Below are positions 7,462-31,129 of a stretch of 34,380 nucleotides of DNA, piece after piece (the stretch's first letter is position 1; each line of letters begins with the position of its first letter). Position numbers and translations under genes: made by a program. The stretch is taken from positions 1 through 34,380 of IMG/VR virus record IMGVR_UViG_3300033148_001446; one strand, given 5' to 3'. Source of the DNA: a virus. Under the pieces are notes generated by a model. The model worked only from the letters and a program-made list of their open reading frames with translations, did not search any database and had not been told where the DNA came from.

Positions 7462-8000
7462 CTTTTTATCCTTAAATTCTGTATCGGGTTAGCTATCTGA
7501 ATAGCATCTGATGGTGCATATTTTAAAGCGTCTATAAATGCTTGTAGCTGAATATTTCCGTCTTGGTAGGTGTTTATCTCACATATCAATAGTTTTGCGT
7601 CTCTATGTGGCTTAACTGTGCTTAGAATAGCAAAGTCACTATCTGGCATCATTGCATCTAGTTTGATTATCTTCATTAACTCACTAAATTGTGTGTTTCT
7701 TTCTTGTGAATCTCTATAAACCTGACCACTAATAGACATAACTAGCTTTATTAATCTTCTTGCTTCTAATATCGTTGCTTCATCAACCTCTGATTCGTAC
7801 TGACTTGCAACTTTTACAATTCTATCCATTCCGTTTAAATAACTATGTTGCTCTCCAAACAACTCAACATAAAAGCCCTTTAAGTCTGAATCGTCAATGT
7901 GATTAATTAGAACTTTTATTGCTTCTTGATTAAATGGGTTTGAGTCAATTTTTAAGCCATTCATTACAGACTTAATTAATTCAGTTCGTAAGTTGTACAT
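7458..8000 (-). CDS. Protein of unknown function downstream of the replication initiator
   Basis: A soluble protein of 180 residues, predicted helical, without cysteines apart from one in LLICEIN. No Walker motif is present, so it is not a DnaC-type helicase loader of the AAA+ kind, although its place right after a DnaD-like initiator gene is where a loader often sits. It overlaps that gene by 20 bases. It may be a structural replacement for a loader or a partner of the initiator. This is inference from position only. Confidence 0.6.
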   Translation of the reverse strand: MYNLRTELIKSVMNGLKIDSNPFNQEAIKVLINHIDDSDLKGFYVELFGEQHSYLNGMDRIVKVASQYESEVDEATILEARRLIKLVMSISGQVYRDSQERNTQFSELMKIIKLDAMMPDSDFAILSTVKPHRDAKLLICEINTYQDGNIQLQAFIDALKYAPSDAIQIANPIQNLRIKR

Positions 8001-8712
8001 CTGTAAACTCCTCTTGCTGATAGTTTTTAGGGTCGAATGGGTCTATGCCTTGAGTTAAAACAACATCAGCTATGCTATCAGTTCTTTGTCTCTCTTGTTC
8101 TTGAAAGCTAATTGGTTTATTATCTTTGTTTTTGCTATTCCATGTAGCTACCGAAGCTTTCCAAGACTTCATTTTGTTTTTACCTACTTTCCATCCATTA
8201 GACTCGTAGAAATTAAAGAATGTATCAGCGTTTACGTTGTAGTCTTTTTTTTCTATGTAATCATATATCTCTGTAATAGTAGGAACTTTAAATCTTACAC
8301 TCTTTTTAGGAGTAGTAGGAGTTCGTAACGAAGTCGGTACGATGTCGTTACATTCCTTATCTCTATCTAATATCTCTATATCTCTATCTTCTATCTTAAT
8401 ATCTGTGTTCATTAATTTGTTTAAATCTGATAATGAGCTACCTATTTTAGATACTTGCATAGACTTAACTTTTAAAAGAATAGCAGACTGCCAAATAGTA
8501 GTTATATCCTCTTCAATCTCCTCTGAGTAGCTTCTGCTGTTACGTTTTTCATCATAACCAAAAGTAAGATAAATCTTATGCTTTATTATTTTATGATTAT
8601 GAGTGCTTGTTATTTGCACACCGCCACCAGTAAAGTCTTTTAATGCAAAATCAGACTTAGTGAGTATTGTGTTGTTTACTAGGTTTAATAATTGTTCATC
8701 TGTAAAGCTCAT
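7981..8712 (-). CDS. Putative replication initiator (replisome-organiser type)
   Basis: The protein has 243 residues. The C-terminal region (about 145-200) has the conserved block PTITEIYDYIEKKDYNVNADTF..FYES.GWKVGKNKMKSWKA..ATW. It is found at the C-terminus of many phage and plasmid replication proteins that otherwise carry a winged-helix or DnaD-like N-terminus. The N-terminal part here is less conserved. It would recognise the phage origin and recruit host DnaB, which fits the absence of any phage polymerase. The ATG at 8712 follows AGGAATAAG. No iterated origin repeats stand out by eye within the gene. Confidence 0.65.
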   Translation of the reverse strand: MSFTDEQLLNLVNNTILTKSDFALKDFTGGGVQITSTHNHKIIKHKIYLTFGYDEKRNSRSYSEEIEEDITTIWQSAILLKVKSMQVSKIGSSLSDLNKLMNTDIKIEDRDIEILDRDKECNDIVPTSLRTPTTPKKSVRFKVPTITEIYDYIEKKDYNVNADTFFNFYESNGWKVGKNKMKSWKASVATWNSKNKDNKPISFQEQERQRTDSIADVVLTQGIDPFDPKNYQQEEFTDVQLTN

Positions 8713-8713
8713 C

Positions 8714-9391
8714 TTATTCCTCCCTATTTAATATTGCTAAAGTACTTTCAGATAGAGATTCTTTCCAATTCTTCTTCGGAATAAATTCTTTTTTTGTTTC
8801 GTGAAAAATTGCATGGTCTTTTTCTAATCTCTTTGAAATGCTTTTAGGTATTATTGTTTTGTCTTTTCTGTACGCATTTATTGTTATTCCTATTGCATTT
8901 TCAAGCATTTGAATTAATACATCTCTTCCGTATAATAAAAACCTACTATCATCTTTTAGATTTTCTTCTTTAATAAAATTTGTATAAAGCTGAGATAAAC
9001 TATCTATATTTTTCTCTTTTCTTCCTGTTTGAATCTTATTAAAAAGCTGTATAGAAATATCTTCAAATTTGTTATGCTCACTATTGTGTCTAGTGATATT
9101 AAACTCTTCTGATGAGTGTTTGTGTATTAAAAATACTATTGTTTTTCTTATGCTTGGTATCTCTTTGTACCACTCTCCATGAGTTCTGTGCCTTGATAGA
9201 TGCTCTTTGATTATGTTTTCTATATAGAATGCTGTTGCTTTTGAAAGTGTGCCTATCTCTGTAAATCTATGAATAGGTAAAGGGCAATTTGTCTGTATTT
9301 CTTTAACCCTATCTTGCACTCTTCTTGATGTAACACCAATTTTACAGAATACTCCTGTGTACAATATGTAAATCTTGTATTTTTTTGTCAT
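8714..9391 (-). CDS. GIY-YIG nuclease-like protein (T5orf172/MUG113 type)
   Basis: The protein has 225 residues. Residues 5-85 carry the T5orf172-type GIY-YIG signature: IYILYTGVFCKIGVT, the RRVQDRVKEIQT helix with its arginine, NCPLP, and a closing ENIIKEHLSRHRTHGEWY with the probable metal-binding Glu. The C-terminal two-thirds is unrecognised. Such proteins can be homing-type nucleases, recombination nucleases or non-catalytic DNA binders. Its leader contains a pseudoknotted RNA and an extended -10 promoter, and the ATG has only a poor ribosome site next to a small GTTC/GAAC hairpin. This suggests its translation is deliberately low or regulated. Confidence 0.75.
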   Translation of the reverse strand: MTKKYKIYILYTGVFCKIGVTSRRVQDRVKEIQTNCPLPIHRFTEIGTLSKATAFYIENIIKEHLSRHRTHGEWYKEIPSIRKTIVFLIHKHSSEEFNITRHNSEHNKFEDISIQLFNKIQTGRKEKNIDSLSQLYTNFIKEENLKDDSRFLLYGRDVLIQMLENAIGITINAYRKDKTIIPKSISKRLEKDHAIFHETKKEFIPKKNWKESLSESTLAILNREE

Positions 9392-9430
9392 GTCAGTTCT
9401 TTAGAACATTTATTAAAGGCTTTCTGAGGA

Positions 9431-9525
9431 GTGTCTAAGTTCCCATACTAATCGTAACCTTATGCTATCTAAATGAGAAGCCTACCTCGGAGAGAGGCAG
9501 ACCCTTTCGGCTTAGACACCATAAG
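9431..9525 (-). ncRNA. Structured leader RNA with predicted pseudoknot, unknown class
   Basis: GTGTCTAAG (9431-9439) pairs perfectly with CTTAGACAC (9511-9519). Directly next to it, CATAAG (9520-9525) pairs with CTTATG (9459-9464) inside the loop, giving a stacked H-type pseudoknot. Within it, GCCT/AGGC plus CTC/GAG (9480-9498) form a bulged hairpin with a GGA loop. It lies 40 bases upstream of the GIY-YIG gene and downstream of a TGTTATAAT box. All neighbours run on the minus strand, so I read it as a 5' leader. It matches no riboswitch or ribozyme I recognise. Confidence 0.65.
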
Positions 9526-9563
9526 ATGTACTAACACTAGCAATGCTAATATCTGTTGACACG

Positions 9564-9572
9564 ATTATAACA
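9564..9572 (-). promoter_or_regulatory. Extended -10 promoter candidate (TGTTATAAT)
   Basis: Perfect -10 with TGn extension on the minus strand. The predicted start is near 9557, about 30 bases before the pseudoknotted leader of the GIY-YIG gene. No good -35. The intergenic stretch 9392-9623 otherwise holds only this and the RNA element. Confidence 0.55.
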
Positions 9573-9622
9573 CAAATCCCCTAAAAAGCTAACTAATTAG
9601 GAAATATTTTGAAAGAGGGGGT

Positions 9623-9628
9623 ATTATA
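9623..9628 (-). promoter_or_regulatory. -10 promoter candidate (TATAAT)
   Basis: A TATAAT on the minus strand overlaps the stop codon of the gene ending at 9624. It is weaker evidence than the neighbouring TGTTATAAT because it lacks TGn. It could be a second start for the same leader. Confidence 0.3.
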
Positions 9629-9824
9629 GCGAATTTGGTATTCTTAAACAATATCCCTCTTTTAGATGTTCATCACCTAATGACACATCTTTCCAAGCCA
9701 TACAATCACCGCATATACACTTGTGTCTTGTTGTATCTGTAGATCTATTGTGCATATCATTATATTCTACAACCAACACATCTATAAAAGGACATATTTT
9801 AGTTTTTGCTTCACTTTCTCTCAT
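9624..9824 (-). CDS. Small cysteine-rich protein, probably zinc-binding
   Basis: Sixty-six residues with five cysteines: KICPF near the N-terminus, HKCICGDCMAW in the middle and GYCLRIP at the end. The spacing suggests a zinc finger or metal knuckle (C...C-x-C-x2-C...C). It is related in style to, though not clearly homologous with, the cysteine-cluster proteins at 3100, 3349 and 22500. Its ATG overlaps the antirepressor TGA (ATGA). Function unknown; co-expression with the antirepressor hints at regulation. Confidence 0.68.
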   Translation of the reverse strand: MRESEAKTKICPFIDVLVVEYNDMHNRSTDTTRHKCICGDCMAWKDVSLGDEHLKEGYCLRIPNSL

Positions 9825-10507
9825 AGCATATCATTCATTTCAAGATTATTTAAAAACCAAATCGCTTCATCGAACTTACTTGATGGCAGTTCCGAATACC
9901 TCGGCAAGTGAAAGTTCTTTTTAAACACACTCCATACTTTCATATGTAGCTTCTTTTGAATCTTCTCGTCTGTTGGTGAGAGTTGATACACTTTAGCGTT
10001 TTTAACGTCTTGTAAGGCTCTTTGTTGCACGAATGAAACAGGTCGTGATTTTAAATCTTCTTGTATGTAAGTTTCTACGTCATTAATTCTGTCATTGTGT
10101 GTGTCTAGTCTTTCATCTTGGTGTTTTAGCCCTTGTGCAGTTAATTCCAATGACTTGATTACGTTTTTCATAGCTATCATTGGTAATTCGTTTTGTTGAT
10201 CCGTCTTAATAATGTAATCACTCGCCCAATCTCTAAATGCTATTGTCTTTTTAGTAGCTCTTAGTTTAAACCCTAAAGTAATGATGCCTTTTTTAGTCCA
10301 CATTGTAATTGGTGTTTTGTTACCATTTGGAACATCCACAAAGTGTGTACCCTCTTTTAACTCTTTTTTGTTTCTTGATTTCATGTTTTGGATTGATTTT
10401 AAAGTAGCTCCGAAACCATTAGCAACTTGTTTATTGCTAACCATAAAAGTATCATTCTCTGATACAACATTAATTTCTACACCGTTTATTTCAATTAAGT
10501 CTGTCAT
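9821..10507 (-). CDS. Phage antirepressor-like protein (ORF6N/ORF6C domains)
   Basis: The protein has 228 residues. The N-terminal half resembles ORF6N/Bro-type DNA-binding domains: FMVSNKQVANGFG, MWTKKGIITLGFKL, and AFRDWASDYI just before the linker. The C-terminal half fits ORF6C (RALQDVKNAKVYQL, KLHMKVWSVFKKNFHLPRYSELP, FDEAIWFLNN). Such proteins relieve repression or reprogram host regulation early in infection. No CI-type repressor is visible, so its target may be a host or resident-prophage regulator, or one of the RHH proteins. Start ATG 10507 follows AAGGATAATAAG. Confidence 0.82.
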   Translation of the reverse strand: MTDLIEINGVEINVVSENDTFMVSNKQVANGFGATLKSIQNMKSRNKKELKEGTHFVDVPNGNKTPITMWTKKGIITLGFKLRATKKTIAFRDWASDYIIKTDQQNELPMIAMKNVIKSLELTAQGLKHQDERLDTHNDRINDVETYIQEDLKSRPVSFVQQRALQDVKNAKVYQLSPTDEKIQKKLHMKVWSVFKKNFHLPRYSELPSSKFDEAIWFLNNLEMNDML

Positions 10508-30111: not shown

Positions 30112-30939
30112 TTATGATTCTAGGTATTTAACTTCGACAATACCCTCTACGTCGATAACTTTACTTCCTGCTTTCCACATACCTAATGATAAGTGAGATG
30201 CTTTATGAGCTACCCAATCAACACGAGTTTTCATGTCAATACCAACTGCATGACCGATTGCTGCTTTATGAAATGCGAAACCAGAACGAACAGTTGTAGT
30301 TAGTGGTAATCCACCCTCTGCACGACCTGAGCCGATAATCTTCCATTTAAAGCCCATAAATGAATCAATCTCACCACTCATTAGTAAACGAACAGAGTTA
30401 TAATCTGCTGATGTAATCCCCGTGTCATTTAGAAGTTGGTTTAACCCACCCTCGTGAACTACCATAAATCTATCTTCCATTGGTGCTTCAACTGCATTTA
30501 ACTCTTTTGCTGCTGCTGTAATAGTAGCTAAATCAAGTGCTTGTGTACCTGCACCTGCTGATGCTGTTGCTCCTGCTTCTAGTGCGTCAATGATTGATTG
30601 GTCATCACGTCTACCCATTGCACCTGCAATAGTTGTCGCAAGTTGTACCACTTCATCAAAGTTAACTGTAGCTTGGTCATAAATATCTGTGTACTCTGGT
30701 GCTTCGTAATCTAAAAGAGTAGCTTGTGCGATACTGTGTTGAATTCCCATTGGAACAACATCCGCTGAACTACCTGTGCGAACTGTCGCTGCACCTTTAC
30801 CCATTAAGCGAAAGTCATAAGTTCCACCCTCTGCTTTTCTAAATGTTACACATTCTCTAAGTGTCTTTGCACCTTGATATGCGTGTTTAACCTCTGAATC
30901 GAATTGTTCTACCTGAACGCTTGTTAAGTCTTGAGACAT
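30112..30939 (-). CDS. Major capsid protein (Phage_capsid_2 / BPP-1 Bbp17-like)
   Basis: The protein has 275 residues. It fits the Phage_capsid_2 family: LTSVQVEQFDSEVKHAYQGAKTLRECV, MGKGAATVRTGSSADVVPMG, YTDIYDQATVNFDEVVQLA, GRRDDQSIIDALEAG, and the end GMWKAGSKVIDVEGIVEVKYLES. It should adopt the HK97 fold and form the icosahedral shell. The leader has a three-way-junction RNA and a palindrome at the promoter. AAAGGAG precedes ATG 30939. It lies next to the decoration gene, and its order relative to scaffold and portal matches BPP-1-like phages. Confidence 0.92.
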   Translation of the reverse strand: MSQDLTSVQVEQFDSEVKHAYQGAKTLRECVTFRKAEGGTYDFRLMGKGAATVRTGSSADVVPMGIQHSIAQATLLDYEAPEYTDIYDQATVNFDEVVQLATTIAGAMGRRDDQSIIDALEAGATASAGAGTQALDLATITAAAKELNAVEAPMEDRFMVVHEGGLNQLLNDTGITSADYNSVRLLMSGEIDSFMGFKWKIIGSGRAEGGLPLTTTVRSGFAFHKAAIGHAVGIDMKTRVDWVAHKASHLSLGMWKAGSKVIDVEGIVEVKYLES

Positions 30940-30986
30940 AATATCTCTCCTTTTGTAATAAGAATTTTGTGATAATTATGCTTCAA

Positions 30987-31045
30987 GTTTAGGGTAGCTC
31001 CTGACAATCCAGGAGGTCATAGCTTTCGGCTATAAACTTCTAAAC
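30987..31045 (-). ncRNA. Three-way-junction RNA in the capsid gene leader
   Basis: Three perfect stems: GTTTAG/CTAAAC (30987-30992 with 31040-31045), CTCCTG/CAGGAG (30998-31003 with 31010-31015, six-base loop) and ATAGC/GCTAT (31019-31023 with 31029-31033, CGAAA loop on the minus strand). The arrangement closes a three-way junction 48 bases upstream of the capsid start and downstream of TATAAT at 31101. It may protect the leader, control translation or be an uncharacterised sensor. No known riboswitch is recognised. Confidence 0.6.
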
Positions 31046-31077
31046 GTCAAGGCTCGTGAGAGGTATCTTTCTGTGTA

Positions 31078-31100
31078 GGTGTTTTAAATATCAAAACACC
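31078..31100. promoter_or_regulatory. Perfect palindrome over the capsid transcription start (operator candidate)
   Basis: GGTGTTTT (31078-31085) and AAAACACC (31093-31100) form an 8-bp perfect inverted repeat around seven bases. It overlaps the position where transcription from the TATAAT at 31101-31106 would start, so it could be an operator or a 5' hairpin of the capsid mRNA. Confidence 0.5.
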
Positions 31101-31106
31101 ATTATA
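31101..31106 (-). promoter_or_regulatory. -10 promoter candidate for the capsid gene (TATAAT)
   Basis: TATAAT on the minus strand (GTGTATAATGG) about 162 bases upstream of the capsid ATG. The predicted leader would contain the palindrome end and the three-way junction. No clear -35. Confidence 0.5.
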
Positions 31107-31129
31107 CACTTTATATTAATTTAATAGTA

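Follow-up and report, generated by a model that had tools for sequence, protein, structure and literature searches.

The locus examined here raises the question of what RNA, if any, a phage makes from the noncoding stretch ahead of a gene for a GIY-YIG-type protein, and what such an RNA would do. The window (the whole stretch of viral DNA that was analysed, 34,380 nucleotides) had been read from its letters as holding, at 9392–9572, an RNA in which two directly stacked helices form a pseudoknot, lying under an extended −10 promoter, leading into a nuclease-like gene with a poor ribosome site, and being perhaps a riboswitch, a ribozyme relic, an intron remnant or a guide-like RNA for the protein. 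The explanation that is tentatively preferred here is that the RNA serves as a bistable, cis-acting 5′ leader for an early operon of the phage's replication module.

Promoter and layout of the leader

The elements at the two ends of the leader are as follows.

9580–9604, minus strand: operator-like dyad TTTCCTAATTAGTTAGCTTTTTAGG, seen in the sequence 5′ of the −10
9564–9572, minus strand: extended −10 promoter TGTTATAAT, from its sequence
9534–9552, minus strand: 5′ hairpin AUAUUAGC / GCUAGUGU of the minimum free energy (MFE) fold
9396–9407, minus strand: small predicted hairpin GUUC-UAAA-GAAC, immediately 5′ of the start codon

The extended −10 promoter is present as had been proposed, and it is conserved at the syntenic place in two sister phages; no good −35 element was scored for it. 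Transcription is expected to start near 9557, an inferred position. The ATG at 9391 is without a good Shine-Dalgarno sequence ahead of it, in agreement with the poor ribosome site claimed earlier. No terminator-like site, intrinsic terminator or attenuator was found in 9300–9700, and the leader RNA is single copy in its own genome.

A nested hairpin as the predicted ground state

The central part of the leader consists of the following pairing elements.

9459–9527, minus strand: core nested hairpin, with base CUUAUG/CAUAAG, middle UGUCUAAG/UUUAGAUA and top GUCUGCCUC/GAGGUAGGC
9520–9525, minus strand: S1a, CUUAUG, partner of 9459–9464
9511–9519, minus strand: S2a, GUGUCUAAG, the putative switching strand, with rival partners at 9466–9473 and 9431–9439
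9480–9502, minus strand: inner hairpin GUCUGCCUC-UCUCC-GAGGUAGGC, with arms at 9494–9502 and 9480–9488
9466–9473, minus strand: UUUAGAUA, the nested partner of S2a in the MFE fold
9459–9464, minus strand: S1b, CAUAAG, partner of S1a
9431–9439, minus strand: S2b, CUUAGACAC, a perfect 9-nt complement of S2a whose pairing would give the pseudoknot

The stems of the sequence-only reading (S1a/S1b, S2a/S2b and the inner hairpin) were all located on the minus strand, and with the conservation of the promoter they support its view that the extended −10 promoter is followed by a structured leader RNA. The best-supported fold is the 69-nt nested hairpin at 9459–9527, which at −30.1 kcal/mol is exceptional for its own composition (z = −5.19, with 0 of 200 shuffles as good); the entire 181-nt region gives z = −2.74 when folded against shuffles. 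In the MFE fold S2a pairs with UUUAGAUA and S2b is unused, S1 forms the base of the nested hairpin, and the inner hairpin sits atop it. Folding the RNA length by length indicates that the nested hairpin appears before S2b is transcribed.

The pseudoknot as a predicted competing state

Both helices of the proposed pseudoknot can form, and the nested alternative, which is the MFE state, is predicted to be more stable. Forcing S2 gives −46.9 kcal/mol, as against −50.1 kcal/mol for the nested fold, energies that omit pseudoknot entropy and tertiary contacts; since the cost is only about 3 kcal/mol, the two states are close. The earlier reading would have been undermined by shuffled sequences that often fold into similar pseudoknots, and this depends on how the pseudoknot is defined: under a loose criterion shuffles produce it frequently (23 of 200 in one test, about 12% in another), and in its strict, directly stacked form rarely (5 of 1000, or 0.5%). 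When the hairpin was kept unchanged and the downstream part was shuffled, 9 of 1000 shuffles yielded a perfect 9-nt complement in the next 68 nt. Taken alone, the pseudoknot is thus weak, or modestly unusual, and several of the shuffle and leader statistics given here and below were designed partly after the sequences had been seen.

A simpler account is that only the nested hairpin is real, stabilising the mRNA (for example against a 5′-to-3′ exonuclease) or spacing the ribosome, and that the 9-nt complement is coincidental. The hairpin alone accounts for the strong z-score, the MFE fold lacks the pseudoknot, and a loose match to the latter occurs in the shuffles at the rate just given. Against this, each of the two sister phages described next also has a perfect complement at that place, 13 nt long in one of them, and the account is considered unlikely.

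Sister phages at the syntenic locus

Relatives of the terminase led to eleven contigs, of which two, from the sister phages L019 and L024, span the region, so that the collections searched contain only three syntenic loci, that of the window included. A more distant terminase (55%) was found in a contig of a Sulfurimonas endosymbiont, which makes a Campylobacterota host likely; by this sequence relationship the host of the window phage is probably a Campylobacterota bacterium. BLAST matches between the window and L019 continue across the ends of the window, which adjoin one another in that sister, and the IMG/VR phage record is therefore probably a circular or circularly permuted genome that has been cut open.

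A promoter block of 68 nt, which includes the dyad TTTCCTAATTAGTTAGCTTTTTAGG, is kept in both sisters, with 94% identity over the 68 nt in L019 and 85–88%, in two pieces, in L024. In both it occupies the same place, after a gene of the ORF6C antirepressor type. Between this gene and the promoter the window phage has a 66-amino-acid, cysteine-containing open reading frame (9624–9824, minus strand) that is without a family match and is absent from both sisters. Similarity between the window and either sister ends a few bases past the −10 and resumes only inside the downstream gene, which is replication-module-like. The L019 RNA lies ahead of a DUF6291 gene, and the L024 RNA ahead of a gene with a different N-terminus and the same C-terminal block. 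The divergence of the leader together with a differing N-terminus, between a promoter and a C-terminal block that are both kept, implies that the RNA and the N-terminus have been exchanged together.

The two sister leaders repeat the layout in other letters. L019 has a long hairpin with a loop, GGUCGGAC, perfectly complementary over 8 nt to GUCCGACC right after the hairpin, and in L024 a segment 23 nt beyond the hairpin forms a perfect 13-nt complement to the hairpin's 5′ half, AGGUUACCAAGCU. Scored for crossing helices against shuffles, the two leaders were equalled in 1 of 200 (L019) and 0 of 200 (L024); for the distal complement alone, 36 of 1000 shuffles were as good for the 8 nt of L019 and 0 of 1000 for the 13 nt of L024. 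All three syntenic loci thus have a hairpin and, beyond it, a distal segment complementary to its 5′ half or loop, and no sequence is common to them. What recurs is a design at a conserved place; covariation as usually understood would need homologs that can be aligned, and there are none. Searches by blastn, by exact pattern and through relatives found no homolog sharing the window's RNA sequence; the promoter pattern recovered, among viral contigs, only the two known sisters and chance matches, and alignments of the downstream gene returned the same two sisters only.

These loci also bear on the view that there is no functional RNA here, and that the stretch is a hypervariable, AT-rich intergenic region with chance folds. 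Such a view would fit the lack of sequence conservation and the frequency of loose pseudoknots in shuffles; with a hairpin at z = −5.2 and an architecture repeated in three of three syntenic loci, it is extremely unlikely.

Genes behind the leader

Two genes follow the leader in the window.

8714–9391, minus strand: GIY-YIG-type gene of 225 amino acids (Pfam MUG113, E 7.3e-9)
7981–8712, minus strand: replication-module-like gene, with a C-terminal third common to the L019 DUF6291 gene and its L024 counterpart

The GIY-YIG gene occurs at this place only in the window phage and is absent from both sister loci. The N-terminus of the window's replication-module-like gene is not common to L019 or L024, so that it represents a third N-terminus on the same C-terminal block. 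No relatives of the GIY-YIG gene were found in viral contigs, in phage records or in 399 Campylobacterota-order genomes.

The suggestion that the RNA is a guide or partner of the GIY-YIG protein, and would co-occur with such genes in other phages, fares poorly. As far as co-occurrence is testable it is contradicted, because both promoter-keeping sisters have the RNA design, directly ahead of replication-module-like genes, without any GIY-YIG gene; on this sequence evidence the leader RNA is independent of that gene. The most economical reading is a bistable cis-acting leader of the replication-module operon, the GIY-YIG gene having been inserted into that operon in this one phage, or exchanged with it. 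An RNA belonging to the GIY-YIG gene, as guide, cofactor or part of a mobile element, would account for their adjacency in the window, and free-standing phage endonuclease genes often have RNA control of their own (PMC2988022), as three HNH genes of sister phages likewise appear to have (see below). With the same promoter and RNA design in both sisters lacking the gene, and no relatives of the gene to follow, this origin of the RNA is very unlikely.

The exchange of the RNA with replication-module-like genes, and its position ahead of them, might also be expected of an origin-associated transcript, that is, a promoter and structured RNA within a replication origin that is exchanged along with its initiator. 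There are, however, no iterons or strong repeats in 9380–9830 and no skew switch near the leader, and this explanation is regarded as quite improbable.

Searches for known RNA families

At gathering score, Rfam has no match in the window and none in the sister loci, and the riboswitch, ribozyme and intron identities suggested by the sequence-only reading accordingly found no backing in the Rfam search that it had proposed. Known riboswitches, ribozymes, group I and II introns and HEARO are excluded only to the extent that Rfam represents them. For the local stretch at E ≤ 10 there was a single, chance-level snoRNA match (17 bits, where the gathering score is 100). A blastn search against phages gave chance matches only, at E 0.06 or worse, and exact matches to the seed CTTATGGTGTCTAAG in viral contigs, 17 in number, were all dismissed as chance, none being accompanied by the remainder of the RNA.

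The P4 CI and P1 C4 RNAs are phage immunity or antisense RNAs. A small trans-acting RNA of this type, made from the leader and with an S2a loop that pairs with the S2b of incoming phages, would explain why self-complementary pairs lie within one leader and why the leader diverges as a module behind a promoter that is kept, fast divergence then reflecting immunity specificity; an antirepressor-type gene also adjoins. It is nevertheless improbable: the RNA has no terminator or defined 3′ end, Rfam gave no C4 match, the antirepressor gene is located upstream and not downstream, and S2b is only some 70 nt distant on the same transcript.

Elsewhere in the window, a structured leader that is conserved in sequence precedes the major head gene (30937–31116, minus strand). 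It was also found in L019 (15530–15561), L024 (17827–17858) and L026 (9204–9234), and in L021, L023, L025, L177, L179 and L181. Its consensus core is UAGC..GCUAUGA[CA]CUCC..GGAGCUACCC, with AGAYACC and GAGCC ahead; seven aligned sequences have two conserved hairpins with a few double changes. It has no Rfam match and is a candidate for a new phage RNA family.

A wider survey of leaders

Eighty DUF6291 loci were collected from viral contigs. Most have coding sequence directly upstream, and fifteen have a noncoding leader of at least 85 nt. The apparent pseudoknots of such loci, for example L164 and L166, were discounted as due to coding sequence or chance, as coding sequence there runs up to the DUF6291 start codons. 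The noncoding DUF6291 leaders, the syntenic loci, the Nitratiruptor phages and G009 together form a set of 19 leaders of the replication type, of which eight have crossing helices at p ≤ 0.02, compared with 10 of 82 other leaders on the same contigs (Fisher p = 0.005).

One DUF6291 contig, L169, has an intrinsic terminator, CCCCGACU..AGUCGGGGC with a U-run, about 45–130 nt upstream of the DUF6291 start, behind a promoter of Bacteroidetes type. The 9-nt loop of the terminator, GCUACGACC, has a perfect complement in GGUCGUAGC, located about 50 nt upstream, and this leader is possibly an attenuator or a terminated small RNA.

When 2717 start codons were scanned under a strict rule, requiring a hairpin loop with perfect pairing of at least 8 nt to the Shine-Dalgarno region, five leaders qualified where about one was expected from shuffles.

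L019, 1263–1342: HNH endonuclease leader, loop antisense to the Shine-Dalgarno sequence
L022, 2229–2319: HNH endonuclease leader, loop antisense to the Shine-Dalgarno sequence
L024, 15296–15360: HNH endonuclease leader, loop antisense to the Shine-Dalgarno sequence
L085/L086 (Nitratiruptor phages NrS-3/NrS-2), 2404–2500: leader of a DUF6291 gene, 17-bp stem and 10-bp loop pairing
L071 (Campylobacteraceae contig), 1855–1965: leader of a Rha-ANT antirepressor gene, 11-bp stem and 12-bp loop pairing

Each of the three HNH leaders begins with its own extended −10, TGCTATAAT. On their predicted pairing the five look like pseudoknots that would occlude the Shine-Dalgarno sequence. The window leader is not among them: that design calls for a loop complementary to a Shine-Dalgarno sequence 4–13 nt before the start codon, and S2b sits 39 nt ahead of the ATG, where it covers no Shine-Dalgarno sequence, so that direct occlusion is inapplicable to the window. 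The longest complement that its leader offers to the initiation region is 6 nt. A UUUAGA–UCUAAA pairing switch next to the start codon was rejected, as it rests on 6-nt matches only.

A model for the leader

The tentatively preferred bistable leader draws its computed support from the conservation of the promoter, the hairpin, its perfect complement, the design of the sister loci, and the exchange of RNA and downstream gene as a block; the excess of crossing helices among replication-type leaders and the five loop-to-Shine-Dalgarno leaders also speak for it. From this computed structure we infer switching, regulation and the step acted on. The transcript from the extended −10 promoter would fold first into the long nested hairpin (9459–9527). 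S2b would emerge about 20 nt later and could capture the 5′ arm of the hairpin, giving either the pseudoknot or a helix of S2 only. The choice of state would be expected to set expression of the GIY-YIG gene and then of the replication-module gene, by timed ribosome access, by RNA stability or by binding of a cognate phage protein, and leader and following gene would be swapped as one module. The leader would thus be a fast-changing control element of the replication genes.

A broader proposal, possible but doubtful, is that such leaders belong to exchangeable cassettes, each made up of a leader RNA with its controlled gene. Behind a conserved early promoter, RNAs unrelated in sequence and alike in their hairpin-plus-distal-complement design would be swapped along with the N-terminal part of the replication gene, the loop-on-Shine-Dalgarno version being a standard safety catch of free-standing endonuclease, antirepressor and replication genes.

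Comparison with known systems

Structured RNAs are usually found through conservation of sequence or through covariation. In the present case it is the location, the promoter and the design that persist and the letters that change, so that the class escapes standard covariance searches. If these leaders switch, kinetic RNA refolding in phage gene control could be studied in them as a small, testable system, and they would suggest that exchange can carry a control RNA along with its protein.

Three known systems are comparable. The P4 CI and P1/P7 C4 RNAs (Rfam RF01695, c4 antisense RNA) resemble the window leader in that an RNA encoded in a leader, in the neighbourhood of antirepressor or replication genes, is complementary to sequences of that same leader; they differ in that the window RNA has no Rfam match, no terminator was found for it, and the gene order is reversed. 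In the gene 32 leader of T4 and RB69, a 28-nt pseudoknot binds gp32, the single-strand DNA-binding protein (PMC535899). There, as here, a phage replication-module gene has a structured leader upstream of its start codon, and the structure is kept while the sequence diverges between relatives. The window RNA is, in contrast, longer and predicted to be bistable, its sister sequences are wholly unrelated, and it is not known to bind a protein. For I-TevI, mobE and segB of T4-like phages, the ribosome binding site is sequestered in a simple stem (PMC2988022). The HNH genes of the sister phages are similar in having their own promoter and a predicted occluded Shine-Dalgarno sequence; they differ in that it is the loop of the hairpin that pairs with the Shine-Dalgarno sequence, as a pseudoknot, whereas that of the window is left uncovered. 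The loop-to-Shine-Dalgarno leaders of the HNH genes would extend, by means of a pseudoknot, the ways in which T4-like phages keep their homing endonucleases off.
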